Part shown: in pieces, positions 17,264 to 37,063 of the stretch | How positions within the stretch are numbered: the stretch's first letter is position 1 | How the letters are laid out: each line of letters starts with the position of its first letter | NCBI GenBank assembly: GCA_945861895.1 | Contig: CAMAWF010000020.1 | Span: 1-44,991 of the forward strand | Source: Rhizobium sp. Q54 | Lineage (GTDB): Bacteria; Pseudomonadota; Alphaproteobacteria; Rhizobiales; Xanthobacteraceae | Direction of reading: 5' to 3' | DNA: 44,991 nucleotides | Notes under the pieces: generated by a model | Databases searched by the model: none | What the model was told of the DNA's origin: nothing | Seen by the model: the letters and a program-made list of their open reading frames with translations, nothing else | Translations under genes and position numbers: made by a program

Positions 17264-17485
17264 TCAAATCCTATTGGCCTCGATCGCGGTCGCCAGCTCT
17301 TCGCCGGAAAAATATCGTCCCTTCTTGGCCTGCAGCCCGATCCGCGTCAGGCTGTTGTCGCCAAAGGCCTCTTCGAACTGCTGTTCAGTCGCGAGCGGGA
17401 TCGTTGGCTTCACCGCATGCTTGCGACCGGTGGACCTCGCTCGTGCAAGCTGCTTGGCAGTCCGGCGCGCAGGTTTTCGGGCCAT
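17264..17485 (-). CDS. Small basic protein of unknown function
   Basis: A 73-residue frame begins MARKPARRTAKQLARARSTG, a strongly basic arm, and ends with an acidic/neutral part (EEAFGDNSLTRIGLQAKKGRYFSGEELATAI). I know no family for it. It could be a small DNA- or RNA-binding protein, or chance coding potential in GC-rich debris after the tRNA. An in-frame start five codons upstream exists. There is no clear ribosome site. Confidence 0.3.
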   Translation of the reverse strand: MARKPARRTAKQLARARSTGRKHAVKPTIPLATEQQFEEAFGDNSLTRIGLQAKKGRYFSGEELATAIEANRI

Positions 17486-17547
17486 GCTTCGTCTCCGCAA
17501 CCCAAGGGCATCGCAAGATTAAGCCACCTGACATGATTCAACGCAGT

Positions 17548-17622
17548 CGCGATACGAGTGAGCCATTCGGGTACCGGATATGAACCAACGAGTGTTGTTT
17601 TGATGCGAGTCGATGGGCTCAT
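17548..17622 (-). pseudogene. 5' fragment of a MetE-like (cobalamin-independent methionine synthase II) gene
   Basis: The frame starting at 17622 reads MSPSTRIKTTLVGSYPVPEW, the characteristic opening of MetE-like proteins, with the TT-V-G-S-Y-P motif, then LTR. Similarity ends after about 25 residues, and the rest of the frame (to 17410) has no resemblance to the family. A complete gene would be about 350 codons, so this is a truncated remnant, a sign of rearrangement between the tRNA and the accessory genes. Confidence 0.5.
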
Positions 17623-17677
17623 GCCACACTCCCTTTATGAACAGATTTCATCAGAATTAATCGTTGACCTATCAGGC

Positions 17678-18931
17678 TTACGCTCCGGCTTGGTGACACG
17701 CTACTTGGCACAGCACTTGCGCTCCCGCGTACAAATCATCCTGTTCCGCGCTTTCCGCCTCACTATGGCTGACGCCATCTTTGCAAGGCACAAAGATCAT
17801 TCCCGTCGGGCAAACTCGCGCTAAAAATTTTGCGTCATGGCCTGCCGCGGAAAGAATAGACATGGCGTTCAGATTAAGCTGCTTGGCGGCGCTTGCTATC
17901 TGTTCTTGTAATATTTTCGAAAACACAACAGGTGGATCATTGACCAGCATCTCGCACTCGACGTGACACGGACTACTATGATTGCTGCAAACCTTCAAAA
18001 TCTCAGTTCCGAGATGATCCAATATCTTGGAATTCGGATGTCGAAGGTCGATAGAAAACGACACCTGGGCAGGCACAACTGAGGGTGCATTGGGTTGTAC
18101 CGTAAATCGACCAACGGTGAATCTAGTTACGTCCTTTTGGTCCCTCGTAATCTTGTCTAATTTACTTACAAGTGAAATCGCCGCGATTAGGGCGTCTTTG
18201 CGAGCAGCACGTGGAGTTGTGCCAGCGTGCGCCTCCTCGCCTTTTACATCGACGCGGAATGTTTGCTTTCCCTGGATCCCGGTAACGACGCCGATCTTGT
18301 GTAACTTGCGCTCTAGGACCGGTCCCTGTTCAATATGTGGCTCTATATAGGCGTGAATCGGAAACCCAAGTTTCCGAACGGGCAACAATGGAAACCGCTT
18401 ACGCATAATTTCCAATTCATCAGCGACGGAGATGTTGTTTGCATCCCGCACGGCTAGAATTTTCTCAATATCTCGAGCCCCGCAAAAGGCCGCGGAGCCC
18501 ATCATCCCAGGGGCGAAACGCGACCCTTCTTCATTCATCCAGGCAACGAGTTCTATCGATCGTCGCGGCAGTACGCCGGTCTCTCGTATAGCGCGCAGAA
18601 CTTCCAAACTGGCAAGGACACCAAACGCCCCATCGAATTTTCCACCTGTTGGTTGGCTATCGATATGTGAGCCAATGACAACTGGTGGTAACGAAGGTTC
18701 GCTGCCCTCTAGTCTCAAGAAGAAGTTACCCATCTCATCCGTGGCGGCAGACAAGCCGAAGTCATCGCCCCATTGGATCAAAACAGTGCGCGCCTCCCAT
18801 TCCTGTTCCGAGAGCGCTTGCCGGTTCACGCCACCATTTGAGAGCTTTCCGAACTCAGCAAGGCACTGATGATCGTTCCACAGGCGAGCGCGACTAATCT
18901 TCGATACAGCGGCAGCAAGGACATTTACCAT
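17678..18931 (-). CDS. M20 hydantoinase/carbamoylase-family hydrolase (allantoate amidohydrolase type)
   Basis: The 417-residue product resembles HyuC/AllC enzymes, which hydrolyse N-carbamoyl amino acids, ureidopropionate or allantoate with two metal ions. Visible ligands are His89 and Asp100 in IGSHIDSQPTGGKFDG, Glu134-Glu135 in WMNEEGSRFAP, His199 in IEPHIEQGPVLE, and a late His in GVSHSEAE near residue 390. The dimerisation domain with GEEAHAGTTP lies between about 215 and 335. Its ATG overlaps the stop codon of a broken alpha/beta-hydrolase gene upstream (ATGGTAA), so it was translationally coupled to that gene. Base composition looks less GC-rich than in the core genes. The precise substrate is unknown. 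Confidence 0.88.
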   Translation of the reverse strand: MVNVLAAAVSKISRARLWNDHQCLAEFGKLSNGGVNRQALSEQEWEARTVLIQWGDDFGLSAATDEMGNFFLRLEGSEPSLPPVVIGSHIDSQPTGGKFDGAFGVLASLEVLRAIRETGVLPRRSIELVAWMNEEGSRFAPGMMGSAAFCGARDIEKILAVRDANNISVADELEIMRKRFPLLPVRKLGFPIHAYIEPHIEQGPVLERKLHKIGVVTGIQGKQTFRVDVKGEEAHAGTTPRAARKDALIAAISLVSKLDKITRDQKDVTRFTVGRFTVQPNAPSVVPAQVSFSIDLRHPNSKILDHLGTEILKVCSNHSSPCHVECEMLVNDPPVVFSKILQEQIASAAKQLNLNAMSILSAAGHDAKFLARVCPTGMIFVPCKDGVSHSEAESAEQDDLYAGAQVLCQVACHQAGA

Positions 18932-19634: not shown

Positions 19635-20663
19635 TTAGATCTTCATCACCAAGTCATTGGTAGCGATCTTGCTGATGTCAATATCGTTCTTGATAAAGCC
19701 AGCGTTCTTGTAAATCTTAGAACATTCCTGCAGCGGCACGGTATCGATCCAGCCAAGGCCGTGCTTACGCGTATGCGCGCTTTGCGAGGTCATAATGCGC
19801 AGCTTCAGACTGCCCATGACCTTGACAGGGTCCTTGCCGTCAATGGCGACTTTCGCCGTGATCTCCGCGGCTTCTTGGATATTCTTGATGGTGTATTCCA
19901 TGCCCTTGCGATAGCCGCGCAAGAACCGCGTATAGAAGTCCTTCTTCGGCTCGTAGTTCTTTTCTTCGATCACAAACAAGTCGGTCGACGTGTTGAGATA
20001 GTCGCGGGCCCAAATCACGTCCACGGTGCCGAGACCGCTGGCCTGCATCCCGTACAGGATCGTATCGGTGGAGGCCATCGCATCGACCTTGCCATCGATG
20101 ATGGCCGGAGCCGCATTCAGGCCAAGCGCGACCAGTTCGACGTCGCTTTCGCTCATTCCATTCAAGGCGAGAATGGTCGCCAGGTTATAACGCGTGCCGC
20201 TGCCCATGCTGATCACGCCGATCTTTTTGCCCTTGAGGTCATAGGGCGTGATGATCTGCTTGCTCTTCAGGGCAAAGACGTTGAACGCATTTTGCGGATA
20301 AATGTCGTAAACCGCCTTGAGCTTGGCGCCCTTGTCGGCAGCCAACAGCATCGCCTCTGGCCCCACAAATGCGATGTCGCCGCTGCCGGCGATCATGTTT
20401 GTGAGGGCCACTCCAGAGCCCGCTCCAGGAATCCATTCGATCTCGAGCCTTTGCTCCTTGAAGAAGCCTTTGGCCTCAGAAACGTAAATGTTTCATTCTT
20501 CGGCCAGCCGAGGCGACCAGACGCACAGTTTGACTTTCTCAAGGTCGGCCGCGCCAGCCTTGCGGATCCAAGGTGCGGTGACGGCTGTTGCTGCCGCCGC
20601 GGTCCCCACCAAAAGTTGGCGGCGATCCATTTTCGTTAAGGTGGTATTGGATTTGAATGTCAT
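19635..20663 (-). pseudogene. ABC transporter substrate-binding protein (NitT/TauT, SsuA-like), interrupted by an in-frame TGA
   Basis: The gene would encode a binding protein of about 342 residues. It starts MTFKSNTTLTKMDRRQLLVG, a twin-arginine-type signal, and the frame runs through KLCVWSPRLAEE to a TGA at 20495-20493. The frame then continues without shift as NIYVSEAKGFFKEQRLEIEW and GSGVALTNMIAGSGDIAFVG to a normal end at 19635. Nothing else is damaged, so the lesion is one codon. Either the importer has lost its binding protein recently, or the base is a sequencing error or population variant. A restart is conceivable but would lack the signal. It follows the permease and ATPase genes in one operon. 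Confidence 0.78.
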
Positions 20664-20739
20664 TGGGTTCCCCGTTGTCATTTGAAGGTGCACGTCCAGA
20701 AAGATGCGATTCTGATCAGTTTGTATTTGTCAGCGCGAA

Positions 20740-21567
20740 TTAATCACCGGGCTTGACATGCCTCCAAGAGAAGAACGTTTGCTCCAGTAATTCCATGATC
20801 TTGTAGAGAACGATGCCGATGACCGTCAGATAGACGAAGATGGCGAACATCAGCGGCGTATCGAAGCTGCCCTGTGCAGCAATAATCAGCGCGCCAAGAC
20901 CACGATTGGCGCCGACATATTCACCGACCACTGCCCCGACGACCGCAAGCGTGATCGCGACGCGCAAGCCCGCGAATATGATCGGCAACGCATTCGGAAC
21001 GCGAAGTTTGAAGAAGAGCTGCCACCGGCTCGCCGTGAGCACCCGGAACAGCTCGACTTGGTACGGATTAGTTGAGGTCAATCCGATAATCGTATTCTCA
21101 AGCAGCGGGAAAAAGCAGATAAGCGCCGCAATCACGACCTTCGGCGCGATGCCGAAGCCGAGCCAGATCACCATAATCGGCGCCAAAGCGAGCTTTGGCA
21201 TCGCTTGCGACGCCAAAATGTACGGGCCAAGAATAGTCCGCATGAGCAGGCTTTGCGCGGTGATTGTTCCCAACGCGATTCCTATCACGCTGCCCAGCAA
21301 AAATCCGAGCAAGATCTCGCTCAGCGTAACCCACATGTGATTGATCAGATGGCCGCTCAAAGTATTTTCGACTAGCGATAGCCAAACGTCGTAGGGTGCC
21401 GGGAGCACCAGCGCCGAGAGCCCCGTCAATCGGACATAGAGATCCCAGACAACTATCACTGCGGTGAAAATTGCTAACGTCAGGGACAACTGGCCGAACC
21501 GCGTCGTGTACCACGCCGGACGCTCAGCTGAGCCGACCTCCATTGGTACAATTGCCGCAGCTGTCAT
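20740..21567 (-). CDS. ABC transporter permease (NitT/TauT family)
   Basis: This 275-residue inner-membrane protein has about six hydrophobic segments and the BPD-type permease loop ending with E-Y-V-G-A-N-R-G-L-G-A-L-I, the EAA motif that contacts the ATPase. It is of the SsuC/TauC/NrtB group, which carries sulfonates, nitrate or related small anions, and in this group also pyrimidine precursors and riboflavin. The start is ten bases after the ATPase stop. With the ATPase and the binding protein it forms one complete importer operon. Confidence 0.9.
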   Translation of the reverse strand: MTAAAIVPMEVGSAERPAWYTTRFGQLSLTLAIFTAVIVVWDLYVRLTGLSALVLPAPYDVWLSLVENTLSGHLINHMWVTLSEILLGFLLGSVIGIALGTITAQSLLMRTILGPYILASQAMPKLALAPIMVIWLGFGIAPKVVIAALICFFPLLENTIIGLTSTNPYQVELFRVLTASRWQLFFKLRVPNALPIIFAGLRVAITLAVVGAVVGEYVGANRGLGALIIAAQGSFDTPLMFAIFVYLTVIGIVLYKIMELLEQTFFSWRHVKPGD

Positions 21568-21576: not shown

Positions 21577-22416
21577 CTAGGCCATCATCGCCTGCTTCAT
21601 ATCCCGGCACAGGCAGACAAATCTGTTATCGTAACGATGTTCAGCCGTGCGTGGGCGCGGTAACGGTATGTCGAATATCTGCTTGACGCAGCCCGGACGA
21701 CTGCCGAGCAGCACCACGCGATCGGACAGAAAGGCAGCCTCGCCGATGTCGTGGGTGATGAATACCGCGGTCGTCCGGCTGTGGCTCCAGATTCGCAACA
21801 ATTCGCTGTTCATCTGCTCGCGGGTTATCGCGTCCAGAGCTCCGAACGGCTCGTCCATCAGCAGGACGGATGGCGAAAGGATCAAAGCGCGCGCGATCGA
21901 TACGCGTTGCTGCATGCCGCCGGAGAGCTGAATCGGATAGTGGTTCTCGAAACCGCTCAGGCCCAACATCTTCAAAAACTCGAGCGCCTTCTCTCGATGC
22001 TCTTTCATATCAAGCTTGAAAATTTCAACAGGCAACAAAATGTTTTCGAGAACAGTACGCCACTCCAGCAAAACGGATTGCTGAAACACGAAGCCCATGT
22101 CCCTGCCCGGCCTCGTGATAGCGACGTCATCCATCAAAACGCTGCCGCTGCTTGGCGGAATTAGTCCGGCGGCGATGCGCAACAGTGTCGTTTTGCCGCA
22201 ACCGCTTTCGCCGAGGATTGAGACGAACTGGCCTTCTTCGATCGACAGATTGATGCCGCTGAGCGCGAGCATGCGTTTGGTGCCAGCCCCAAACGTTTTC
22301 GTTACGTCACGAAATTCAATTTTAGCGGTCGCCGGAACTTGCTGCGGCTTCGGATTCGACACCGAAACGTCACGCATCGACGCCAACCCGTTTGCAAGAT
22401 GTGATGCGACTACCAT
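21577..22416 (-). CDS. ABC transporter ATP-binding protein (NitT/TauT family)
   Basis: The 279-residue ATPase has Walker A GESGCGKTT, the Q-loop FVFQQSVLLEWRTV, the signature LSGGMQQRVSIARAL, Walker B VLLMDEPFGALD and the switch His in VFITHDIGEAAFL. The sequence resembles SsuB/TauB-type subunits of nitrate, sulfonate and taurate importers. It is first in the operon and is read away from the TRZ/ATZ-type amidohydrolase gene, with which it shares a 388-base divergent control region. Confidence 0.92.
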   Translation of the reverse strand: MVVASHLANGLASMRDVSVSNPKPQQVPATAKIEFRDVTKTFGAGTKRMLALSGINLSIEEGQFVSILGESGCGKTTLLRIAAGLIPPSSGSVLMDDVAITRPGRDMGFVFQQSVLLEWRTVLENILLPVEIFKLDMKEHREKALEFLKMLGLSGFENHYPIQLSGGMQQRVSIARALILSPSVLLMDEPFGALDAITREQMNSELLRIWSHSRTTAVFITHDIGEAAFLSDRVVLLGSRPGCVKQIFDIPLPRPRTAEHRYDNRFVCLCRDMKQAMMA

Positions 22417-22804
22417 AGGTCTAGTTTCGCGCGTAACTCATTTGCACTAATCCGACTCTACCCATCCGTCTACTGCAGATTACAGGCCAACCGTATTGCC
22501 TGCGCCATCGACATCATGTTTTCACTACTTGCACCGCAACACACGCAGACATTCGGCAAGTTTGGGCATCGGACGGTTCCGCTTGCGTAGATGTACTCAC
22601 ACAACCCCTAGTCAAAAGAATTCTAGCAGATAAATTATACAATATGCAAACTCTAAAATATGCTTTGATGCGCGGCTGTTGAGTGTTTGAAGTTTTGCTC
22701 AGGAAGTAATCTTCGGTTGCCAACGATCTAGGCAGGCTTCGTGCAACTTCGATCTTGGCGGTACTGCGCGGCAAAGCGCGATTTGAAATAGACGGGAGCG
22801 GATG
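22417..22804. promoter_or_regulatory. Divergent control region of importer operon and amidohydrolase gene
   Basis: These 388 bases between divergent genes hold no convincing gene; overlapping frames on the minus strand are shadows. The part from about 22610 to 22690 is strikingly AT-rich for this genome. It contains TATAAT on the minus strand (22636-22641) and ATTATACAAT on the plus strand, a near-palindrome of the ATTGTATAAT kind used by FCD-type GntR regulators such as the one at 30.6 kb. That link is a guess. GGGAG at 22794-22798 is the ribosome site of the plus-strand gene. Confidence 0.4.
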
Positions 22805-24202
22805 ATGCTTGAGACGGTGGACATTCTTATCGAACGCGGCACCTTGCTGACGCTTGATCGCGAACGCAGAATCTTGACTGACGGCGCAATCGCGATCCGC
22901 GCTGACCGAATTATCGCAGTCGGAAAGACCGCGGACATCAAGAAGCAGTACACCGCCGGAAAAATAATCGATGCGTCTAGCCGTGTCGTCATGCCGGGTC
23001 TCGTGGACGGCCACGCCCATCTGAACGAAATAGCACGCGGACTTATTCCCGACGATTTAAAGACCAGCGATTGGCTCAAATACTGGTGCTACCCGTATTT
23101 CGCGGCAACGACCGCCGAGGACGAATACTGGTATTCGCAATGCCTAATTGCCGAGATGATCCGCTCGGGCACAACCTGCTTCGCCGAGCCAGGATGTAAA
23201 TTTCTGCCATCCATCGTCAAGTCGATCGAGAAGAGCGGGATTCGCGCCACCACCGGCAGCTGGGTTTGGGATCACGGCGGTCCCGATGGCCAGAAGTGCC
23301 CTGAATATTTTCTCAAAATGAGTCTCAAGGAATGTCTTGAGCTCACGGAAAACAACATCAAGAGCTTCAACGGCGCGGCCAACGGTCGCATCAAGATTTT
23401 CGCCACGATCGAAGGCGTCGGTACCTGTTCCGACGATCTCATGATCGGGACGAAGGAACTCGCGGACCGCTACGGCACATCGACCTTGATGCATAAGGCA
23501 AGTTCGCGTGAAGAGGTCGCCGCCGAAATGCGCGTTACCGGCCACCGTCCGGTCGAGCACATGTATAAGATCGGCGTACTCGGGCCGAACGTCTTCCTCA
23601 ATCACATGACGGCTGTCGATGGCTACGAGGTTGAGTATCTCGCCGAGACCGACACCAAGGTGTGCCAGAACCCGCCGGCTGCTTTGAAACTCGCCAAGGG
23701 CACCACCCAGATGGGTAAGTTCCTGGAAATGCGCAAAGCCGGCGTGACGGTTGCGCTTGGTTGCGATGGGGTGAATTCCGGTGACCACAAGGACATGTTC
23801 CGCGCGATGTATCTGGCGGCGACCTTGCCCAAGGACGCGCGTATCGACGCATCGGTTATCACGGCGGAAGAAGTCATCGAGATGGCGACGCTCAACGGCT
23901 ATCGCGCCACGGGCTGGGATAAGGACCTGGGCGTTCTCGAAGCCGGCCGGAAGGCGGACATGATCCTGATCGATATCGATCGCCCGGAATTCGTGCCGAC
24001 CTACAACTATGTTTACAGCCTCGTGTATACGGCCAGCGGCGACTGCGTCGATACGGTGATTGTCGATGGCAAGATACTGATGGAGGGTCGCGAACTGACC
24101 ACTATTGATCTTGCCGAGGTGCGCGCGCACTGCCGCGAACTTGCGCCGCAATTGCTCACACGCTCGAATGTAAAGCCAGTCTCGCGCTGGCCCATCGTGT
24201 GA
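22805..24202 (+). CDS. TRZ/ATZ-type amidohydrolase (deaminase/dechlorinase family)
   Basis: The 465-residue product is a subtype-III-like metal-dependent amidohydrolase related to AtzB, TrzN, guanine/8-oxoguanine deaminases and S-adenosylhomocysteine deaminase. The metal ligands are visible: His70 and His72 in VDGHAHLNE, His230 in LMHKASS, His267 in LNHMTAVD and Asp321 in LGCDGVNSGDH. The family's catalytic Glu of H-x-x-E after His230 is not obvious, because HKASSREE places the acidic pair later. I prefer the ATG at 22805 over the one at 22802, as it sits six bases from GGGAG. Placed opposite the importer and beside an amidase, it probably deaminates or dechlorinates an imported N-heterocycle. 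Confidence 0.87.
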   Translation: MLETVDILIERGTLLTLDRERRILTDGAIAIRADRIIAVGKTADIKKQYTAGKIIDASSRVVMPGLVDGHAHLNEIARGLIPDDLKTSDWLKYWCYPYFAATTAEDEYWYSQCLIAEMIRSGTTCFAEPGCKFLPSIVKSIEKSGIRATTGSWVWDHGGPDGQKCPEYFLKMSLKECLELTENNIKSFNGAANGRIKIFATIEGVGTCSDDLMIGTKELADRYGTSTLMHKASSREEVAAEMRVTGHRPVEHMYKIGVLGPNVFLNHMTAVDGYEVEYLAETDTKVCQNPPAALKLAKGTTQMGKFLEMRKAGVTVALGCDGVNSGDHKDMFRAMYLAATLPKDARIDASVITAEEVIEMATLNGYRATGWDKDLGVLEAGRKADMILIDIDRPEFVPTYNYVYSLVYTASGDCVDTVIVDGKILMEGRELTTIDLAEVRAHCRELAPQLLTRSNVKPVSRWPIV

Positions 24203-24225: not shown

Positions 24226-25686
24226 TTACTTGGCCGAGATCGCGTCGGAAACCATCGCCGGAAGCGGCAGGGTCACGCCTGCCTGTGCGAGCGCGCGCTC
24301 GCAAAGCTTGGCGAAGGCAAGCACCGTTTCGTCACAGCCCCAGGCGCCGACGATTTGCAGTCCGACCGGCAGCCCGCCCGCCATGCCGGCCGGAATCGAA
24401 ATTGCCGGCTGTCCCGACAGATTGAACGGATAGGTGTACGGCGTCCACGTTACCCATGGCAGTTGTGCATCGGCCTCGCCGCCTTCGGGCACCTCAGCTT
24501 CGGCGGTAAACGCGGTAAGCGGCATAGTCGGCATGACGAGCACATCGAACTCTTCGCAAAGAGCGAATGCCTCGGCGACGAATTTCCGGCGCGTTTCGAT
24601 CGCATTGAAGAATTTTGGAAGCGAATAGTCCTGCGCCAGGTCGTAACAGCGCGCGAGGCCTGGATCCATGAGTTCGCGGCTGTTCTTAACGACGTCGACA
24701 AAGCCATAGCCGCGGCCGGTGACCCAAAAGGCCTCAAAAACATCTCGCGGCAGCGGCGACTTGAATTTGGCATCCTGGAATTCGGCAGCGACACCACCGC
24801 GCAAGATTTTCAGGGCATTGGCAAACACCGATGCGACGTCCGGATTGGAAGCGATGCCGAAGGGCTGCTCCATGATCCCGACACGAACACGCCCGCTGCG
24901 CAGCCGCGCCAGCCGATCCGCCTCACCATTTCCGTTCGCCGCGAATGAAAGAGGATCGCGCGCGTCTGGCCCCGCCGTCACGGCAAGTGACAGTGAAATG
25001 TCCTCAACATCGCGGCAGAGCATTCCCGCATGTGACAGTGTTTCCGTCACGGTGCCGGGATAGACTGGAATCTTGCTGAGTGTCGGCTTTAGTCCGGCTA
25101 TGCCGCAAAACGATGCGGGAATGCGGATCGAGCCGCCGGCGTCGGAGCCGATGGCAATCGGCACCGCGCGGGCTCCGACCGTCGCAGCGGAACCGGCGCT
25201 GGATCCGCCCGAACCTTTCGAAGGGTCATAAGGATTGCGCGTGGTGCCGGTAAGGGGCGAATTCCCGGTGCCCTTCCAGCCGAACTCCGGCGTCGTGGTC
25301 TTCCCGATAACAACGACGCCCGCCACAAGTAGGCGCGCCACCATCGGCGAGTCGTATGTCGCAACGTGATCCGACGACGTGCGCGAGCCCTTCTTCACCG
25401 GAAAGCCAGCAAAGTAGAAATTATCTTTGACGGCGATCGGCACGCCGTGAAGACCGCCCCGGATACGCTGCTGGCGCGCTTCCGCTTCCCGCTCGACGGC
25501 GATTTTTTTACTGTAGTCGTCCAGGAACAAAACGTAAGCGTTGATTTTTGGCTCGGTTGCCTTGGCCAAATGCAGCGCACACTCCGCGAGTTGCACCGGT
25601 GACAAGCTCCCGCCGGCGACAGCCTTCGCCATCTCCTGCCCGGAGAGCCGGATATACTGATCGAGCGAAAGGTTGCGGAACGCCAT
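24226..25686 (-). CDS. Amidase signature family hydrolase
   Basis: The 486-residue enzyme has the Ser-cisSer-Lys triad of amidases: Lys87 in AVKDNFYFAG, Ser162 in GSGGSSAGSA and Ser186 in DAGGSIRIPAS. The fold is complete to the C-terminus. The start at 25686 (MAFRNLSLDQ) is supported by GAGGGG five bases upstream (25691-25696); an upstream MRGK start would overlap it. Amidases of this family act on many amides, from acetamide to biuret and allophanate-like compounds, so the substrate is unknown. It converges with the TRZ/ATZ-type gene and lies close after the M20 gene, with 39 bases between. Confidence 0.92.
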   Translation of the reverse strand: MAFRNLSLDQYIRLSGQEMAKAVAGGSLSPVQLAECALHLAKATEPKINAYVLFLDDYSKKIAVEREAEARQQRIRGGLHGVPIAVKDNFYFAGFPVKKGSRTSSDHVATYDSPMVARLLVAGVVVIGKTTTPEFGWKGTGNSPLTGTTRNPYDPSKGSGGSSAGSAATVGARAVPIAIGSDAGGSIRIPASFCGIAGLKPTLSKIPVYPGTVTETLSHAGMLCRDVEDISLSLAVTAGPDARDPLSFAANGNGEADRLARLRSGRVRVGIMEQPFGIASNPDVASVFANALKILRGGVAAEFQDAKFKSPLPRDVFEAFWVTGRGYGFVDVVKNSRELMDPGLARCYDLAQDYSLPKFFNAIETRRKFVAEAFALCEEFDVLVMPTMPLTAFTAEAEVPEGGEADAQLPWVTWTPYTYPFNLSGQPAISIPAGMAGGLPVGLQIVGAWGCDETVLAFAKLCERALAQAGVTLPLPAMVSDAISAK

Positions 25687-25725
25687 CTTGCCCCTCAACG
25701 ATGTGCTGGCGGCTTAGCTTCGGAC

Positions 25726-29230: not shown

Positions 29231-30364
29231 ATGTCCGACTTTGAAGCTCGCAATAAATACTTCGACTCGCTTTTCGCCAATCGCGATTTGCGCTGGATGG
29301 GGCAGAACACCAACCACATTCCGCTGCCTGCGGCTGTGCGGCAGGCAATCGAGGAAAGCGTTGCGGCTGACGAGTTTCGAGCCTACGCACCACCGCTCGG
29401 CTTTGAAGAGCTCAGGGCCGCGATCATCGACGATCTCGGCTTAAAGGGTGCGACCGCCATCGTCACCGACGGCGGTATCGAGGCGCTCTACCATGTCTGT
29501 CATTCGGAAACCGGCCCGGGTGGCACCTTCGTTACAACCGACCCGGGCTGGAAATGGCCGGCGCTGTTCTCTCGCGCCGCCGGCGCCGAGATTATCGAAA
29601 TCCCGATCTACGACGAGGCCTGCGGTTACCATCTCTGGGCGGACCAACTGGCGGAGAAGGTCGATAACCGCACGCGGATCATCTATCTGGTCGATCCGAA
29701 CAATCCGCTCGGCACTTGCGTGCCGAAGGACGAAATCAAAAAAATCGCCCAGGTCGCACGCAGTTGCGGCGCCATTCTGGTGCACGATTGCACCTATCGG
29801 CATTTCGCCGACGACCACACTTTGGCGTGGCCGTACTATCCGGAGAAGACACTCACGATCTACAGCTTCTCCAAATGGCTGGGGCTCGCCGGACTGCGCG
29901 TTGCTGCGCTCGTGGGTTCGCCTGAAATGTTGGCCGCGCTATCGCGGGCCGCGCCCAACAATTTGGGATCGAACGTCCTTTCGCAGCGCGCAGCCTTGGC
30001 GGGCCTGCGCAGCAAAAGCGAATGGTTTCCAACCGTACAGCAAACGCAGCGAAGCAATCAGGCAACGATCAAGGCGGTCGTGGATAAACTTCCGGGCTTT
30101 CGTCTGCCGGTTTATCCGTCGAACGGAAATTTTCTGGTCGTCGAATGCATCGATGCCGGCCTGCAGCCGGAGGCAATCGTCGCCGAAATGCAGAGGCACA
30201 ACATCATGGTGCGGCAGGGCGCATACCACACTGCTCGCTTCGGCCATCGCTTTATCAAGGTCAGCACCACGGTACCAACCGAATGGGTGACGGAATTCTG
30301 CAAGCTCTTGCCTGCAGTCGCCCATCAAGTGCGCGGCCGCAAAGAGAACGCGGCGCTGTTTTAG
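29231..30364 (+). CDS. Pyridoxal-phosphate aminotransferase, class I/II
   Basis: The 377-residue fold-type-I enzyme has the PLP Lys in YSFSKWLGLAGLRVA, the conserved substrate-binding DPNNPLGTCVP and the late Arg in RFIKVSTT. It lacks an N-terminal extension. It is the last gene of the plus-strand operon. It likely transaminates an amino-acid-like product of ring opening or of amide hydrolysis; no specific substrate is indicated. Its end is followed by an inverted-repeat element. Confidence 0.9.
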   Translation: MSDFEARNKYFDSLFANRDLRWMGQNTNHIPLPAAVRQAIEESVAADEFRAYAPPLGFEELRAAIIDDLGLKGATAIVTDGGIEALYHVCHSETGPGGTFVTTDPGWKWPALFSRAAGAEIIEIPIYDEACGYHLWADQLAEKVDNRTRIIYLVDPNNPLGTCVPKDEIKKIAQVARSCGAILVHDCTYRHFADDHTLAWPYYPEKTLTIYSFSKWLGLAGLRVAALVGSPEMLAALSRAAPNNLGSNVLSQRAALAGLRSKSEWFPTVQQTQRSNQATIKAVVDKLPGFRLPVYPSNGNFLVVECIDAGLQPEAIVAEMQRHNIMVRQGAYHTARFGHRFIKVSTTVPTEWVTEFCKLLPAVAHQVRGRKENAALF

Positions 30365-30580: not shown

Positions 30581-31339
30581 CTATTTCGATATAAAGGACT
30601 GAGCGAAACGCGAGCGGTTCAGCGTAACCTCGAAGTCGCGCCATGAACCGACCATGTGCTGCACCAGCAGCTCGGAAAGACGGCGCGCGTCGCGTTTCTT
30701 GGCCGCCGCGGCGATTTGCTCGTGTTCCTTGATCGCCCGATTCCACGCCTCCGGCGGCATATTTACAAAGAACCGCGCGCGAAGAATGCGGACGCTGAGT
30801 GATTCATGAAGTTCCGCGAGGAACGTATTGCCCGCGCCGCGCACGATGGCTTGATGGATGGCGAGATTCGTGCGGAAATATTCCTTGTTGCCTTTGTCGT
30901 TCGAATGCAGGTGCACGAGACGATGGTGCAACTTGAGGATATTTTCAATTTCGTTTGACGTGAAGTTAATGCACGCCAATTGCGCGCAAAACGACTCAAT
31001 CGCCCCGATCGCGTAAAACAGCCCTTGAATTTCATCGGGATCGGGCGTCGCCACGATGGCGCCCCGCCGCGGCAGCGGCTTTACCAAGCCTTCCGAGGCG
31101 AGGACGCGAATTGCTTCCCTCAGCGGCGTGCGCGAAATACCGAGTTGCGCGCACAGATCGTTCTCGGGAATGCGGGTACCCGGAGGAAGTTCGTCCTGCA
31201 TGATCATGTCGCGCAGCACGGCTGCGACTTCGTCATGCAGGTTGCCGCGCACTATCTGTTTGCGGCCGTTAGTGTTAAATGCACGCGGCGCGGCCGCGGC
31301 GGTGCTCTTGGATGTGGTGGCGATCGTGGGTCGTTTCAT
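30581..31339 (-). CDS. GntR-family regulator with FCD ligand domain
   Basis: The 252-residue protein has an N-terminal winged helix (about residues 30-100) with the typical GNLHDEVAAVLRDMIMQDELPPG and ISRTPLREAIRVLASEGLVK, and the all-helical FCD effector domain (about 105-235) with the metal-binding His residues expected there (HHRLVHLH, NLAIHQAIV). FCD regulators respond to small carboxylates and often control catabolic operons. It is transcribed downstream of the molybdenum hydroxylase genes and probably controls the surrounding operons; its operator was not identified with confidence. Confidence 0.9.
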   Translation of the reverse strand: MKRPTIATTSKSTAAAAPRAFNTNGRKQIVRGNLHDEVAAVLRDMIMQDELPPGTRIPENDLCAQLGISRTPLREAIRVLASEGLVKPLPRRGAIVATPDPDEIQGLFYAIGAIESFCAQLACINFTSNEIENILKLHHRLVHLHSNDKGNKEYFRTNLAIHQAIVRGAGNTFLAELHESLSVRILRARFFVNMPPEAWNRAIKEHEQIAAAAKKRDARRLSELLVQHMVGSWRDFEVTLNRSRFAQSFISK

Positions 31340-31429: not shown

Positions 31430-33781
31430 TCAACGCAACGGCCATTCGCTACGCCACGGCGGTGAATCGAATTTTCCGTCCCGCGCGGCCGCAAATGCCT
31501 GAAACACCATCTCCGGCGTGATAGGCAGCTTTGACAGCGAGATTTCATGCCCGACCGCGCGCGGGTCGATAGCGCGCGCGATCGCATTCGCGATTGCCGA
31601 CGGAACCGCAATGAGGCCGCCTTCGCCGATGCCGCGCACACCGAGCGGGTTGGTCGATGCCCGAGATTCTACGTGCTCGATATGCACGCGCGGCGCTTCG
31701 GGAGCCGTGATGACCATGTAATCGGCCAGGGTGCCGTTGAGCAGTTGGCCCTCGCTGTCGTAGGATATCTCGGAGAGAATGGCACTGCCGATGCCGTCGA
31801 CCGCCCCGCCGATCACCTGACCCTCGACGATCATCGGGTTCAGCATGCGCCCGGCGTCGTGCACAATCCGGTAGTCGATGACGCGAAAAAAGCCGCTGCG
31901 TGGATAGACCGCGACCTGGGCGGCATGCACCGACAAACCCAGGGTCAAGAGATCCTTGCTGTCAAAGATGTATTCGGCTTCGAGCGCCATTGCGCCGGTA
32001 TATAAAGCGCCGCCGGGCGCAATTGCCCTGGCGACCTCCCCAACCGACAGGTTGGTATCGCTTCTATTCCGGCGGATGATGCCGCTGAAAATCGACAGCG
32101 TCTGGCGGTCGGCCTGAAGCAAGGTCGCGGCCACGGCAAGAACCTGGCTACGCAGCTTCTCGCTAGCGCCCGCTACCGCATTCGCGCCGAGAACGGCTCC
32201 ACGGGTTGCAAACCCCCCGCGGCCGAACGGCAGCAAGCCGGTATTGCCCAAACGGACCTGAACATTCTCAAATCTGACGCCGAGCGTTTCGGCGCACACC
32301 TGGGCATAGGTCGTTCGTTGCCCTTGCCCTTGCGAGGAAATTCCTGACAGGACAGTCACCAGGCCGGATGGGTCGATAGAAACTTTCGCAGACTCGTAAT
32401 TGACGAACCCGGACGCCTCCACACCGCAAGCGAGCCCCCATGCGACGCGCTCACCACGATCGTTGGTGGCGGGCGTTTCGCTATAGCCAGTACCGGTCGC
32501 GGCTTTCTTTAGCATCAACGGAAAGTCGCCGTTCTCGAATGCGCTCGTCGCCGTGCCGTGGTCGAGGCGCGACGTGTACGGCATGTCGGCAGGCCGTATA
32601 ATGTTGCGCTCGCGAATGTCGACGGCCGCAATCTTGAGTTCCTTGGCGACGACATCCAATGCGGTTTCAAGCGGAAATGTCGCCTCGGGCTGACCGGCGC
32701 CCCGATAGGTCGCAATCGGAGTCTTGTTGGTGCCGACGCAAACGACTTCGATTGAGACATTGTCGATTTTGTAGGGCCCGGCACAACGCGCGGCGACAAT
32801 TTCTGCGGTGACGATCCCGCTGGTGTAGACGTAGGCCCCGATATCGACGATCACCCGCTCCTTCAAAGCGGTGATTTTGCCCTCGGCGTTGTAGGCGATC
32901 TCCAATTCGGTATCCATCGATCGCGAATGCGTCGTCGCTTGCAGGTTTTCGAACCGGTCCTCAATCCACTTGACCGGGCGTCCGAGTCGCATGCTGGCGT
33001 GGCTGACAATGATTTCTTCCGGATAGGTGCGCGACTTCGATCCAAATCCTCCACCGACGTCTTCCGCGACGACGCGAACATTGCTTTCAGAGAGATCGAG
33101 AATTTTCGACAGGTTTGCGCGGACGTTGTAGTGCGATTGCGTCGAGAGATAGACCGTCAATTCGTTCTGATCGACGGCGTAGTCGGCGACGCAACCGCGT
33201 CCCTCCAGCGGCAGCGGAATTTGGCGCGCATAGCGATAGTATCGCTTCAGCCGTCCGGCACTCCTCGCGATCACGCCGTCCGCGTCGCCGAATGAATGCT
33301 TGAACTGTGCGGCGATATTGCCTTGCCATTCGTCATGCAGCAGCGGCGAACCCGGCGCCATCGCAACCGCCACCGACCCGACCGGCGCAAGCGCGCGATA
33401 TTCGATCTGGACAAGCGCCGCGATATCTTCGGCGAGATAGCGATCGTTGGCGACAAGAAATGCAACCGGCTCGCCGACGTAGCGCACGCGGTCCATCGCC
33501 AGAAATGGCGGCAGGCCATTCTTGATGCTGGGATGCCAATAGCGGACCACGAAATCACGATCATTGAACGGCAGATCTTTCGAGGTCAGAACAAGCAAGG
33601 CGCCCGCCGCGATCGCTGCGTTTGCATCGATACTCACGATCTCAGCGTGTGCCATCGGACTGCGGATAAAGACGCCCTCGACCATGCGATCGAGATGGAC
33701 GTCATCGGTAAACCGGGCGCGGCCGGTCAGGAGACGATGATCCTCCTTGCGAAGCGGGGAATTCGTATCGCGGGCGCTCAC
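31430..33781 (-). CDS. Molybdenum hydroxylase large subunit (xanthine dehydrogenase / CoxL-like)
   Basis: This 783-residue subunit binds the molybdopterin cofactor and does the hydroxylation or oxidation. It starts at a GTG overlapping the stop of the FAD subunit gene (GTGA; SARDTNSPLRKEDHRLLTGR). A longer ATG start at 33802 is possible. The active-site loop AYRGAGQPEATFPLE is that of general aldehyde/xanthine-type enzymes, not the AYRCSFR loop of form I CO dehydrogenase. The catalytic Glu lies in GVRGIGEGGLIAVPSAI, and GGGFGSKSRTYPEE binds cofactor. With the other two subunits it forms a complete hydroxylase, likely acting on an N-heterocycle or aldehyde. Confidence 0.92.
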   Translation of the reverse strand: MSARDTNSPLRKEDHRLLTGRARFTDDVHLDRMVEGVFIRSPMAHAEIVSIDANAAIAAGALLVLTSKDLPFNDRDFVVRYWHPSIKNGLPPFLAMDRVRYVGEPVAFLVANDRYLAEDIAALVQIEYRALAPVGSVAVAMAPGSPLLHDEWQGNIAAQFKHSFGDADGVIARSAGRLKRYYRYARQIPLPLEGRGCVADYAVDQNELTVYLSTQSHYNVRANLSKILDLSESNVRVVAEDVGGGFGSKSRTYPEEIIVSHASMRLGRPVKWIEDRFENLQATTHSRSMDTELEIAYNAEGKITALKERVIVDIGAYVYTSGIVTAEIVAARCAGPYKIDNVSIEVVCVGTNKTPIATYRGAGQPEATFPLETALDVVAKELKIAAVDIRERNIIRPADMPYTSRLDHGTATSAFENGDFPLMLKKAATGTGYSETPATNDRGERVAWGLACGVEASGFVNYESAKVSIDPSGLVTVLSGISSQGQGQRTTYAQVCAETLGVRFENVQVRLGNTGLLPFGRGGFATRGAVLGANAVAGASEKLRSQVLAVAATLLQADRQTLSIFSGIIRRNRSDTNLSVGEVARAIAPGGALYTGAMALEAEYIFDSKDLLTLGLSVHAAQVAVYPRSGFFRVIDYRIVHDAGRMLNPMIVEGQVIGGAVDGIGSAILSEISYDSEGQLLNGTLADYMVITAPEAPRVHIEHVESRASTNPLGVRGIGEGGLIAVPSAIANAIARAIDPRAVGHEISLSKLPITPEMVFQAFAAARDGKFDSPPWRSEWPLR

Positions 33782-34626
33782 GTGACGACCTGCTGCAGAC
33801 ATTTGGTCAGGGATACCCGCGCAAGATGGCGGCGATATTCCGCGCTTGCTTGCAGGTCGCTTTGGGGCTGCAACAGCGCGATTTCGTGTTCGATCAGCTT
33901 GGCGACGCGGTCGGAACCAGGGGTGCCGGCAGCGAAAGCCTCGCTCAGTTCGCGGCAAACATGAGGCCTGGAACCGACACCGCCCAGCGCCGCTTTCAGC
34001 TCAATGCCGTGGTCAAGCCTGCTCAATTGCACGGCCGCCGACGCGATCGCAAAGTCGCCGTGGCGGCGGGCGAATTCCCAAAACGCGACGCGTGCTCCCT
34101 TCGGTGCGGACGGAAGCCTTATCTCCGTCAGCAATTCGTCGGAATCGAGCGCGGTCGTGAGCGCATCGACAAAGAATTCATGCCCCGGGATTTCCCGTAC
34201 TCCCCGTTTGCTCTGGGCAATCAGCGTGCCATTGAGCGCCGTCACGACCAGCGGCAATTCCGCCGCCGGATCAGCATGGGCGACACTGCCACCAGCCGTT
34301 CCGCGATTTCTCGTCTGCACATGACCGACATAGGGCATCGCCGCCGCTACCAGCGGCGCGTGGAGCTCGACAAGCGGATGGTCGAATAGATCTTTTTGCC
34401 GCGCCATGGCGCCAATTCGCAATTCACCGTTGGCAACGGAAATACCGGTAAGCCCACCGACCTGGCCAAGATCGATCAGAAATTCCGGGGTCGCCATCCG
34501 CAGATTCATCAGCGGAACAAGGCTTTGTCCGCCGGCCAGGAGCTTCGCGTCAGAATGAGACGACAAAAGATCAAGTACTTCGGTCAATGCCCGCGGCCGC
34601 GCCATCTCGAACGGAGCCGGTTTCAC
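33778..34626 (-). CDS. Molybdenum hydroxylase FAD-binding subunit (CoxM-like)
   Basis: The 282-residue subunit carries FAD between the iron-sulfur and electron-acceptor sites. Its N-terminal FAD domain has the motifs LLAGGQSLVPLMNLR and GTAGGSVAHADPAAELP. The C-terminal CO-dehydrogenase flavoprotein domain follows (LSEAFAAGTPGSDRV). Start and stop overlap the neighbouring subunit genes by four bases (ATGA and GTGA), which fixes the subunit order small-FAD-large. Confidence 0.92.
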   Translation of the reverse strand: MKPAPFEMARPRALTEVLDLLSSHSDAKLLAGGQSLVPLMNLRMATPEFLIDLGQVGGLTGISVANGELRIGAMARQKDLFDHPLVELHAPLVAAAMPYVGHVQTRNRGTAGGSVAHADPAAELPLVVTALNGTLIAQSKRGVREIPGHEFFVDALTTALDSDELLTEIRLPSAPKGARVAFWEFARRHGDFAIASAAVQLSRLDHGIELKAALGGVGSRPHVCRELSEAFAAGTPGSDRVAKLIEHEIALLQPQSDLQASAEYRRHLARVSLTKCLQQVVT

Positions 34627-35081
34627 TGCGCAAGCTCAAGAACAACTTCGACGAGCGACTGATAACCGGTGCAACGGCAGATATTGCCCGACAGGAATTC
34701 CCGCGCCGCTTGTTCCGTCTTCGGCAGAGTCCCGCGCTCCCAGGCGGCGGTAATTGTCATCAGCAACCCGGAGGTGCAAAAGCCGCATTGCAGCGCGTGG
34801 TGGCGGTGAAATGCGTCTTGCACCGGCGACATCCGGCCGTCCGCGTCCAGGCTTTCAACCGTGCGAATCTCGCTGCCCTCGACCTGGAGGGCGAAAATGA
34901 GACATGAGCGAACCGCATCGCCATTCACAATAACAGTACAAGCACCGCATGCGCCCATCTCGCAGCCGACATGCGTTCCGGTAAGACGTAAAAAGTGCCG
35001 GAGGAAATCCGACAAAAGCAAGCGCGGAACAACTTCACTCGAAACCGATTTTCCGTTGACCCGACAGTTCAAAATCATCAA
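34623..35081 (-). CDS. Molybdenum hydroxylase 2Fe-2S subunit (CoxS-like)
   Basis: The 152-residue subunit has two 2Fe-2S clusters. The plant-type one uses GCEMGACGACTVIVNG with a further Cys in RSCLIF, and the second uses CGFCTSGLLM and CRCTGYQSLV. It is the first gene of the three-subunit operon. Its stop overlaps the FAD subunit start. Confidence 0.93.
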   Translation of the reverse strand: MMILNCRVNGKSVSSEVVPRLLLSDFLRHFLRLTGTHVGCEMGACGACTVIVNGDAVRSCLIFALQVEGSEIRTVESLDADGRMSPVQDAFHRHHALQCGFCTSGLLMTITAAWERGTLPKTEQAAREFLSGNICRCTGYQSLVEVVLELAQ

Positions 35082-35150: not shown

Positions 35151-35163
35151 TTAGGTATCCTAA
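35151..35163. promoter_or_regulatory. Possible operator TTAGG-TAT-CCTAA
   Basis: TTAGG and CCTAA are perfect inverted five-base arms around TAT, lying between the divergent 2Fe-2S subunit and cytosine-deaminase-like genes (start codons at 35081 and 35219). The position suits a regulator site. There is no second copy visible, so the support is weak. Confidence 0.25.
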
Positions 35164-35218
35164 CCCGCCGAAGGTACACTCATCCCAACGTGTGGACAAA
35201 CGCAAATGGTGACGACTG

Positions 35219-36562
35219 ATGTCTCGCGGCAATTCTATTTCTATTCCGGCGGCCGATAAATTCTGGATCAGGCAGGCGAAAATTCCAAGCGTCTTTTTGC
35301 GTGATAAGTGCGATGGCGCAAGCATCGATCGGGAAGGCTCCGTGCTCGTCGATTTGCGAATCGAAGGCGACAAGCTCGTGGCGATTGCACCGGCTGGCAA
35401 GATAGACAGCAGCGGCGATTCGTCGCTCGATCTGCAGGGATTTCATCTGTGGCCATCTTTGATTGACGTACACACGCACATCGACAAATCGCAGGTGATT
35501 TCGCGGATTGGCCCATTGGGCGCGTCGTTTGCAAATGCACGCGAAGCGATCAACGCCGACCGAAAAAAGTATTGGAACCGCGACGACATCTTGGCGCGCA
35601 TGGATTTCTCGATCCGAAGCGCCTTTGCGCACGGCGTATGTGCCCTTCGCACGCATATCGATTCCTATGAGGGCCAGGCGGAGCTGAGCTGGGAAGTTTT
35701 TGCCGAATTGCGCAAAATCTGGAATGGGCGTGTGACGCTGCAAGCGACGAGCTCGGTGCCGATTGATGTCTACTCGACGCCATACGGAAGAAAACTTGCT
35801 GATTTGGCGGCGGCGACTGAGGGCGGACTTCTGGGTGGAGTTTTGCGCCGTTCAACCGACCATAACTACATCTTCATAGAAAATATCGATGAATTGCTCG
35901 ATGCCCAATTCATTTTGGCGAAGGATCGAAACCTGTCTATTGACCTGCACGTAGATGAGACCGTCGCGAGCGACATTTTTCATCTTGAACAGGTCGCCAA
36001 TGCGGTGATCCGACATAAGATGCACGGCCGCGTAGTCTGCGGCCATTGCTGCAGCCTTGCCGTTCAACCGGAAGACAAAGTTGAATCCGTCCTGGCGCTG
36101 TGCGCCGAGGCGGGCATCGCCATTGTCGCGCTGCCGTTGGCAAACCTGTACTTGCAGGACCGCCAGATTGGCCGTACGCCGCGGCTGCGGGGAGTGACAG
36201 CGCTCCACGAAATCCGGGCAAAAAAGATTCCGGTTGCCCTCGCCAGCGATAATGTCCGCGATTCATTCTACCCGTTCGGCGATTACGATCCGTTGGAAAC
36301 GTTTCGCCAGTCGGTAGCGATCTATCACCTCGACCAGTCTCTTGGAGAATCCCTCGGAATGTTGGGGCCGATGCCCGCGCAAATGATGGGCATTGCACCT
36401 CAAGCATCCCTGAGCGCCGGCGGGCAAGCCAGCCTTATCGTTTTACGCGCGCACAGCCTAAATGAAATCGTGTGCAGGCCGCAAATAGACAGAATTGTCA
36501 TAATGAACGGACAGGAGATCCGCGATGGTCAGCCCGAATTTACGGCGAGTTTTAATTTCTGA
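35219..36562 (+). CDS. Cytosine-deaminase-like amidohydrolase
   Basis: The 447-residue enzyme resembles CodA and its relatives. Visible ligands are His85 and His87 in IDVHTHIDKSQ, the next His and the catalytic Glu in DLHVDETVASD, His in VCGHCCSL, and Asp in ALASDNVRDSFYPFGDYDP. CodA-like enzymes deaminate cytosine, isoguanine, or related rings, and some act on N-isopropylammelide or hydantoins. It is divergent from the molybdenum hydroxylase operon. Its codons look less GC-rich than those of the core genes. The substrate is open. Confidence 0.88.
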   Translation: MSRGNSISIPAADKFWIRQAKIPSVFLRDKCDGASIDREGSVLVDLRIEGDKLVAIAPAGKIDSSGDSSLDLQGFHLWPSLIDVHTHIDKSQVISRIGPLGASFANAREAINADRKKYWNRDDILARMDFSIRSAFAHGVCALRTHIDSYEGQAELSWEVFAELRKIWNGRVTLQATSSVPIDVYSTPYGRKLADLAAATEGGLLGGVLRRSTDHNYIFIENIDELLDAQFILAKDRNLSIDLHVDETVASDIFHLEQVANAVIRHKMHGRVVCGHCCSLAVQPEDKVESVLALCAEAGIAIVALPLANLYLQDRQIGRTPRLRGVTALHEIRAKKIPVALASDNVRDSFYPFGDYDPLETFRQSVAIYHLDQSLGESLGMLGPMPAQMMGIAPQASLSAGGQASLIVLRAHSLNEIVCRPQIDRIVIMNGQEIRDGQPEFTASFNF

Positions 36563-36667
36563 TTTTGAATACTGAGCTGGTTCGAAGTGCCAAGGCTTTG
36601 GCAAACTCAGTGGCATTGTTGAGAATGTATTGAGCCAGCAGGTGGCCTTCTAAGAGTCCGTTTGAGA

Positions 36668-37063
36668 ATGGATGGTGTTGAAGCTTTCGGCGTGATTCAA
36701 GCTTGGGATGTGGACCCCAGCGAATCGTGGCCGACGGAGCTGATCGCGATGATGAAGAATATGAATTCCGATTCACCGGCGCCGGAAATAATTGAAAGTC
36801 GTATCGACATGATTGTTGCGTTCGACCGGCGTTCGAGAATGAAGAACATCAAAGTTCCTACGCTCGTTATCTGTGCGGAGGATGACATCCTCACGCCCCC
36901 GGATCTGTCTGAAGAGTTAAAGAACGGTATTGAAGGCGCGCGTTTAACTCAGCTGCATTGGGGTGCACATGCCTGTTCTCAGACCGCGCCGACCGATTTT
37001 ATGGAGCCTGTCCAGACATTCTTGTCTGAACCATGGGTAACGATTGTCCCTACCAAAAACTAG
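36668..37063 (+). pseudogene. Alpha/beta-hydrolase fragment, 5'-truncated
   Basis: The frame (MDGVEAFGVIQAWDVD...) is the last 130 or so residues of an alpha/beta hydrolase. It has the acid loop PTLVICAEDDILTPP and a catalytic His in WGAHACSQTAP, but no nucleophile elbow. There is no ribosome site before the ATG at 36668 or the TTG six bases upstream. It ends where the transposase remnant begins. A similar but different hydrolase remnant sits at 18.9-19.2 kb, also by a transposase piece. Confidence 0.6.

Follow-up and report, generated by a model that had tools for sequence, protein, structure and literature searches.

A recurrent TRZ/ATZ–M20 hydrolase pair in a probable catabolic neighbourhood for nitrogen compounds of Rhizobium sp. 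Q54

Does a dense set of hydrolases for nitrogen compounds on one contig of Rhizobium sp. Q54 (CAMAWF010000020.1) form a single catabolic pathway, and is that pathway a described one? The stretch analysed, 44,991 nucleotides long and referred to here as the window, is the whole of contig C20 of a 3.77-Mb genome (G000). From gene classes alone, an initial annotation had proposed a possibly undescribed ring-opening pathway. Genes of the cluster were assigned from open reading frames (ORFs) and from Pfam and NCBIfam profile scores compared with curated cut-offs, and all of the named classes were present at or near the positions given for them; the observation was confirmed and its interpretation partly supported. 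The window probably holds a conserved multi-hydrolase neighbourhood for the catabolism of nitrogen compounds, with a pathway that looks real and may be undescribed, and our searches tied it to no named pathway. Its core consists of a TRZ/ATZ-type amidohydrolase (TRZ1) and an M20-fold enzyme (M20X), the latter also modelled with AlphaFold2, its predicted local distance difference test score (pLDDT) being given below.

22802..24202, + strand: TRZ1, TRZ/ATZ-type amidohydrolase (NCBIfam/Pfam profiles, PDB match, alignment, tree)
25726..26910, − strand: M20X, M20-fold enzyme (profiles, alignment, AlphaFold2 model with pLDDT 85.2, PDB comparison)

The TRZ1–M20X pair

The grouping of TRZ1 with M20X is beyond chance, because it is seen again in further genera and in a second phylum. 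Fourteen M20X loci were compared: the window, 11 loci from a scan of named genomes (14 loci found, 11 of them M20X, 44–76% identity) and two from a scan of the order to which the genome of locus L030 belongs. Eight are from Pseudomonadota (the window; L023, L024, L025 and L027 of Defluviicoccus; L026, L028 and L029 of genomes G558, G435 and G689) and six from Actinomycetota, all Acidimicrobiales (L030–L033, L047 and L048). Three loci were left out (L034, L035 and L036; 25–39%), of which L035 is partial at a contig end and the other two served as controls. Of the 14 loci, 13 have a TRZ/ATZ gene (tblastn, E ≤1e-15) no farther than ~10 kb from M20X, that of L047 sitting in an adjoining stretch, and none was found in five control M20 loci spanning 17–21 kb each (L034, L036, L050, L051 and L055). 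Co-inheritance of TRZ1 and M20X across two phyla is the simplest reading of this distribution. The neighbourhood search suggested by the initial annotation thus recovered the core in two phyla, although not every gene on its list.

Both enzymes are atypical, with catalytic residues usual in their families replaced. In two-metal M20 hydrolases a Glu-Glu pair is catalytic and a C-terminal His serves the metal site. All 14 M20X rows have Asp-His-Met (DHM) in place of Glu-Glu and Tyr in place of the His; the canonical residues are retained in E. coli YgeY and in the M20 rows of L013, L055, L058 and L060. M20X has the M20 fold and lacks the residue set of a two-metal hydrolase. In TRZ1 of the window, Ser replaces the catalytic Glu (HKASS), although the HxH motif, the His residues that follow it and the Asp are all retained. 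Ser or Thr occupies this position in 9/9 TRZ1 rows of an alignment from which incomplete or disrupted genes (L013, L029, L030 and L032) were left out. The amidohydrolase phylogeny, another of the suggested checks, placed TRZ1 in a clade of its own (nine rows, support 99/98; five Pseudomonadota and four Actinomycetota), and the 14 M20X rows likewise formed one clade (100/100) divided into eight Pseudomonadota (96/99) and six Actinomycetota (100/99). With several long branches meeting in the trees, placements outside these two clades were not used. The reaction order initially proposed, in which deamination precedes hydrolytic opening and amide removal, is not supported as it stands: it presupposes ordinary active sites, and TRZ1 and M20X lack the standard catalytic residues.

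Structural comparison of the M20X model gave its highest Z score, 39.0, with the M20-fold enzyme 5-nitroanthranilate aminohydrolase (22–23% identity), tied within 1 with 3pfo (38.8) and the DapE structure 7uoi (38.1). 5-Nitroanthranilate aminohydrolase uses a single-metal aromatic-substitution mechanism and is an earlier case of an M20-fold enzyme with shifted chemistry. M20X might accordingly hydrolyse an aromatic or heteroaromatic ring carbon rather than an amide, a mechanistic proposal that could hold under any of the readings discussed here; given the tie, and with 7uoi the best match both by sequence and by Foldseek, we find this proposal somewhat unlikely. Familiar M20 identities were also examined. 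M20X scored below the cut-off for ArgE/DapE deacylases (TIGR01910, 156.7 vs 217.6 bits), and it was not assigned to the YlmB deformylases of formylaminopyrimidine (FAMP), being 22–23% identical to M20 proteins of L060 and L058 that group elsewhere in the tree; this comparison used the annotated L060 and L058 proteins in place of the B. subtilis protein itself. Two M20 enzymes of Duffyella and Pantoea plasmids (L050 7992–9209 and L051 7912–9261), each adjoining an ATP-binding cassette (ABC) importer, are likewise missing the usual metal residues of M20 enzymes and represent a different degenerate M20 subfamily.

The described system closest in outline is the reductive uric-acid pathway, which, in the portion of PMC12507026 that describes it, joins a xanthine-dehydrogenase homologue, SsnA, a second amidohydrolase, the M20 enzyme YgeY and an enzyme dependent on pyridoxal phosphate (PLP). 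The initial claim that no described pathway has this gene set holds insofar as no named pathway was tied to the window, although this one does combine such enzyme kinds. The E. coli ygeW-ygeX-ygeY-hyuA ... ygfK-ssnA-ygfM-xdhD cluster resembles the window in uniting a molybdenum hydroxylase homologue, an Amidohydro_1 hydrolase of the TRZ1/SsnA superfamily, a second amidohydrolase, an M20 enzyme and a PLP enzyme, and the window might be read as a variant of that purine route (XdhD, YgfK, SsnA, HyuA, YgeW or UacY, YgeY, YgeX), with TRZ1 as SsnA, M20X as YgeY and the molybdenum hydroxylase as XdhD. Membership, however, was not borne out gene by gene. TRZ1 fell below the SsnA cut-off (TIGR03314, 178.9 vs 455.5 bits) at 22% direct identity and without the HxxE Glu kept by E. 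coli SsnA, and M20X below both YgeY cut-offs (TIGR03526, 83.3 vs 321.5; NF009555, 121.8 vs 321) at 24% direct identity with different catalytic residues. Moreover, HyuA, YgeW and YgeX had no match at E 1e-4 when 25 window genes were compared by blastp with 11 E. coli proteins from that cluster region, a set not including YgfK. We regard this variant as very unlikely.

TRZ1 found its best PDB sequence match in atrazine chlorohydrolase (4v1x, 1.8e-48), compared with only 3.6e-12 for 2paj, labelled a putative cytosine/guanine deaminase, which we take to be isoxanthopterin deaminase; its own structure model was weak (pLDDT 70.7). The likeness to s-triazine hydrolases (AtzA/TrzN, AtzC, AtzE/F) extends to the CodA-like protein of the window, which matches AtzC-type structures, and to the shared amidase family. 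The N-ethylammeline chlorohydrolase, AtzE and allophanate-hydrolase models nevertheless all scored below their cut-offs, and to our knowledge neither an M20 enzyme nor a molybdenum hydroxylase has a place in the s-triazine pathway. Resemblance to the Rut pathway (RutA-G) is confined to the alpha/beta hydrolase, which is weakly RutD-like and was rejected as RutD (TIGR03611, 67.2 vs 238.5 bits); no luciferase-type, RutA-like gene was present among the genes assigned in the cluster.

Gene content and conservation of the island

The genes named in the initial annotation all lie between a tRNA-Met gene and an integrase-core remnant of an insertion sequence (IS), accompanied by the following features.

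17023..17098, + strand: tRNA-Met (ARAGORN, Rfam), marking the left edge of a block of low G+C
17678..18931, − strand: M20 hydantoinase/carbamoylase-type amidohydrolase, allantoate/carbamoyl-amino-acid type (NF006771 414.7 vs 399; TIGR01879 396.3 vs 204)
19635..20681, upper limit approximate, − strand: ABC substrate-binding protein gene, NMT1/THI5 Pfam family (intact frame 19635–20411, PF09084 103.6 bits)
20740..21567, − strand: ABC permease (PF00528)
21577..22416, − strand: ABC ATPase (PF00005)
24226..25698, − strand: amidase-signature amidase (PF01425 299.9 bits)
27190..28104, + strand: alpha/beta hydrolase (PF00561)
28112..28864, + strand: short-chain dehydrogenase/reductase (SDR) oxidoreductase (Pfam/NCBIfam profile; 75% homologues in L026, L028 and L029)
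28907..29221, + strand: NIPSNAP-domain protein (PF07978 114.5 bits; 77% homologue in L028)
29231..30364, + strand: PLP aminotransferase (NF004870, PRK06225, 485 vs 351 bits)
30581..31339, − strand: GntR/FCD regulator (PF07729, PF00392)
31430..33958 (listed ORF start; domains from ~residue 78), − strand: molybdenum hydroxylase large subunit (PF01315, PF02738, PF20256)
33778..34626, − strand: molybdenum hydroxylase FAD subunit (PF00941, PF03450)
34623..35081, − strand: molybdenum hydroxylase 2Fe-2S subunit (PF01799, PF00111; 44% to E. coli XdhC)
35219..36562, + strand: CodA-like amidohydrolase, PRK07583 group (NF005759 505.8 vs 403 bits)
36662..37063, + strand: alpha/beta-hydrolase-like fragment (two alpha/beta hydrolases matched by blastp, at 33% and 42%)
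37060..37401, − strand: integrase-core (IS) remnant (PF13683 36.9 bits)

Pfam domains were found for all three subunits of the molybdenum hydroxylase, which had been described as complete, and the enzyme is of the xanthine-dehydrogenase type (molybdenum-cofactor, FAD and 2Fe-2S domains together with a GxGE motif, GIGEGG); aerobic carbon monoxide dehydrogenase was rejected (TIGR02416, 401 vs 991 bits; YRCSFR active-site motif absent). The M20 carbamoylase retains the canonical NEE motif, and the amidase carries VKD, GGSS and GSDAGGSIR motifs. The CodA-like assignment denotes group membership, the activity of the PRK07583 group not being set by the score. The ORF at 36662–37063 encodes 133 amino acids, compared with 275 in one of its blastp matches, and had no Pfam match, indicating a fragment; an ORF at 19157–19627 also had no Pfam match and resembles a transposase by eye only. 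The GntR/FCD regulator was missing from the initial gene list. An importer close to that of the window occurs on an Azospirillum brasilense plasmid (L055 15092–18378; identities of 49% for the ATPase, 50% for the permease and 45% for the uninterrupted portion of the binding protein), where it stands with an SDR gene (40%) ~5 kb from an ordinary M20 gene and offers a possible lead to the importer ligand.

The G+C content drops from ~0.66–0.67 at 14–17 kb to 0.53–0.54 at 17–20 kb, is 0.53–0.61 across the island block and stays at 0.55–0.62 onward to the right end of the contig; because low G+C persists to that end, the right border of acquired DNA may fall beyond the window. The distribution of M20X also points to acquisition. 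As a probe at E ≤1e-60 it matched two of 248 genomes in the family sample (the window's own and G435) and was without a match in 17/17 other same-genus genomes listed (E 1e-60); at 1e-50, matches came from three of 385 genomes in the class sample, the window's own included, and from that genome alone among 398 in the phylum sample, and at 1e-70 from three of 198 genomes in the order of L030's genome, itself included. Any TRZ match at E 1e-60 was limited to five of 297 order genomes (own included). In same-genus genomes, for example G416, G486 and G1446, each of one or two contigs, the segment with the tRNA and its left-hand neighbour, a peptidase gene, matched at separate places. Viral contigs that were scanned yielded no relative. 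On contig C120 of the window's genome, a 47-base segment (2045–2091) matches the 3′ half of the island-edge tRNA-Met at 96% and could be a far attachment site, or the other end of an integrated element. To the right of the island, positions 37500–43911 encode a TctC receptor, NifU-like, Amidohydro_2 and ketopantoate-reductase-like proteins, an aldehyde dehydrogenase and a GntR/UTRA regulator, making up a further catabolic set.

Outside the core, conservation of the listed genes was patchy, and the initial description of a complete set acting as one unit was not sustained. The contig of L028 keeps most of them: M20X (73%), TRZ1 (76%), SDR (75%), NIPSNAP (77%), alpha/beta hydrolase (49%), molybdenum hydroxylase large subunit (57%), M20 carbamoylase (52%) and aminotransferase (54%), eight gene kinds within 38 kb at 49–77%, with the CodA-like gene only 30% alike. 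Its amidase ORF (11202–11801) has 211 amino acids vs 490 and lacks the middle part, which implies that L028 either does without the amidase step or has replaced it. The Defluviicoccus loci retain M20X and the amidase (53–63% over all four, as split hits in L023, and 56–60% in L024, L025 and L027), and three of the four have a TRZ gene. The alpha/beta hydrolase (49–54%) and the SDR recur in L026, L028 and L029, and L026 and L029 also keep M20X, a distant three-subunit molybdenum hydroxylase (large subunit 33–34%) and a TRZ gene. A large subunit was located within ~10 kb of M20X in six of eight proteobacterial loci (the window, L023, L024, L026, L028 and L029), at 57% identity in L028 and only 32–34% elsewhere; on the L028 contig and two Defluviicoccus stretches, neither a medium nor a small subunit was detected beside it. 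Lone large subunits of xanthine-dehydrogenase type were seen at L028 1511–3826, L072 5374–7698 and L074 9222–11555. Among the 11 M20X loci of the scan, NIPSNAP and the M20 carbamoylase recurred only in L028, and the aminotransferase only farther along its contig.

Such patchiness would be expected if there were no single pathway and the island were a patchwork of gathered, partly decaying catabolic genes in which only TRZ1 and M20X act together. The CodA-like gene has no close counterpart in other M20X loci, the M20 carbamoylase and aminotransferase have one each, the large subunit is mostly distant, and wear is visible in the binding-protein gene, the alpha/beta-hydrolase fragment, the IS remnant and the shortened L028 amidase. 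The eight gene kinds on the L028 contig argue otherwise, as do M20X, the alpha/beta hydrolase and the SDR, which stay grouped in three other loci, and we consider a mere patchwork somewhat unlikely. Part of the listed gene set may still be hitch-hiking or decaying. On balance we lean towards the region being a horizontally acquired island, now partly worn, for the degradation of a substituted N-heterocycle, with a pyrimidine-type ring the most likely.

Several observations weigh against this reading. The control loci were few (n = 5). Only nine of the 13 TRZ neighbours are TRZ1 proper: those of L026 and L029 are 35% identical, the former outside the TRZ1 clade and the latter not in the tree, and those of L047 and L048 are of a second type (TRZ2). 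L027 has M20X and the amidase with no TRZ gene in the 10 kb upstream examined. Loss of the catalytic residues is not unique to the pair, because the canonical motifs are missing as well from two M20 rows of Pantoea/Duffyella plasmids, and the Glu from several TRZ rows that do not belong to TRZ1. Several listed genes recur in one other locus or none, leaving only the core widely conserved. ABC genes are present as initially stated, but they may not encode a working importer: an in-frame stop near the N-terminal end interrupts the binding-protein gene (19635–20681), pointing to either a pseudogene or an assembly error. With this interruption and with an IS remnant at its right-hand side, the island may be in decay.

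Acidimicrobial relatives and the thiamin pyrimidine

The actinobacterial loci offered a lead to the substrate. FAMP, ThiY, YlmB and TenA are parts of thiamin-pyrimidine salvage, as set out in sections of PMC10470507 and PMC5627462. On plasmids of Rhizobium daejeonense (L058) and of a Paracoccaceae bacterium (L060), TRZ2 adjoins an NMT1-type ABC importer, TenA and an M20 gene, in company with luciferase-like and alpha/beta-hydrolase genes; in L060 the depositor names the M20 gene FAMP deformylase, and the last two kinds are named RutA and RutD. These stretches (L058 3301–13653 and L060 4804–14848) look like a separate thiamin-pyrimidine catabolic operon. Clusters of this kind (ThiXYZ, TenA, YlmB) share with the window the combination of TRZ/ATZ, M20, ABC importer and alpha/beta hydrolase, and they share the M20X context in Acidimicrobiales.

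In the Acidimicrobiales, M20X was followed by a B12-dependent acyl-CoA mutase in 6/6 loci (partial at the contig end in L031) and accompanied by a CaiB-type CoA transferase in five of six, the contig of the sixth ending first, a context pointing to a branched acid product. In L047 (10313–20369), L048 (10119–16664) and L032 (6641–17900), the mutase large subunit and CaiB come just after M20X, and L047 also has the B12-binding subunit by Pfam. A luciferase-family (LLM) enzyme resembling F420-dependent reductases, with scores below the cut-offs, was present in four of six loci, the missing cases being cut by contig ends. All six genomes have TRZ2 (partial in L030, on another contig for L031), 57–67% identical to TRZ2 of L058 and L060. 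A TenA-family gene was found in four of six (L030, L032, L047 and the genome of L033, there on another contig, L044); that of L032 scored 128.5 against a cut-off of 130 and retains the LPCxWSY segment. The structure 3ix1, a ThiY that binds FAMP, was matched by the binding protein of L030 (3e-34, its best PDB match) and by that of L047 (1.7e-32, with 4nmy better at 7e-49); the one of L048 is of the NMT1/THI5 type, and L031–L033 have an NCS1 permease instead. No thiamin pyrophosphate (TPP) riboswitch was detected at the Rfam threshold in nine loci, which suits catabolism better than salvage.

If the window shared the substrate of the Acidimicrobiales clusters, it would act on the 2-methylpyrimidine moiety of thiamin or on a derivative, which is a narrower form of our preferred explanation. 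The ring, 4-deaminated, oxidised or reduced, would be opened, the 2-methyl carbon unit would leave as an acyl group through M20X, and the branched remainder would enter central metabolism. The recurrence of the mutase and CoA transferase, of TRZ2 and TenA and of ThiY-like binding proteins in the loci or genomes with M20X, together with the riboswitch result, favours this identification for the actinobacteria. The window itself differs. Its TRZ and M20 proteins are ~31–32% and ~22–23% identical to TRZ2 and the FAMP-deformylase-type M20. The 258 intact residues of its binding protein, the only part used as query, gave no specifically ThiY-like match (best PDB match 3qsl, 6e-9; THI5 3e-4). Its genome gave no TenA match with TIGR04306, a model with control matches in seven of 14 named genomes. 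TRZ2 was absent there and in six other proteobacterial M20X genomes (best matches 32–35%; none at E 1e-50 in G1245; the genome of L027 not among the six), of which one had TenA, at 26%. The genome of L031 likewise yielded no TenA, and for L048 the search covered its contig only. The missing TenA and TRZ2 join the points counted above against the degradative island. For the actinobacterial branch the thiamin pyrimidine is thus a lead with good grounds; for the window it is no more than a guess, and one that we hold to be unlikely.

The proposed route and its meaning

For the window, a route can be sketched from predicted functions, its step order being a guess that adds to the reservations above. 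The ABC importer, its binding-protein gene now bearing a stop, would have taken the compound in, and the molybdenum hydroxylase would put oxygen on a ring carbon. The hydrolytic steps that commit the compound to breakdown would fall to TRZ1 and M20X, with either the activated ring or the product of its first opening as substrate; M20X would probably work with one metal, on an N-acyl or amidine product or, like 5-nitroanthranilate aminohydrolase, on a ring carbon itself. Acyl or carbamoyl groups could then be taken off by the amidase, alpha/beta hydrolase and M20 carbamoylase, and the aminotransferase and SDR could convert an amino acid or semialdehyde product to central metabolites.

The same genome contains a second TRZ and M20 cluster (contig C56, L013, 743–12754), in which the TRZ gene has an in-frame stop. 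It encodes an F420 ligase (TIGR01916, 270.6 vs 180.65), an NADPH-F420 reductase (TIGR01915, 178.8 vs 149.8) and an F420-type LLM enzyme (TIGR03619, 191.7 vs 166.9), as well as two CoA-transferase subunits, a PALP-family PLP enzyme and serine hydroxymethyltransferase, with CofC/CofD-like neighbours recognised by eye only. This cluster suggests that F420 is used in N-heterocycle breakdown in an alphaproteobacterium.

In its boldest form, which we judge distinctly unlikely, the argument would make TRZ1 and M20X a new ring-cleaving core of two enzymes, each with a remodelled active site, serving an undescribed catabolic route for the pyrimidine of thiamin (vitamin B1) or a close analogue. The two phyla would share this route, an F420-type enzyme activating the ring in Actinomycetota and a molybdenum hydroxylase in Pseudomonadota. 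Our searches of open-access literature, a scope outside which most subscription papers fall, turned up salvage of the thiamin pyrimidine but not complete degradation of its ring. If true, a DHM-type M20 enzyme with an HKA[S/T]S-type TRZ enzyme would be a marker pair for a catabolic pathway, one that routine annotation would probably call 'deacylase' and 'deaminase'; a further M20-fold enzyme would probably have moved off two-metal amide hydrolysis; and genes would be assigned to full breakdown of the thiamin pyrimidine ring.

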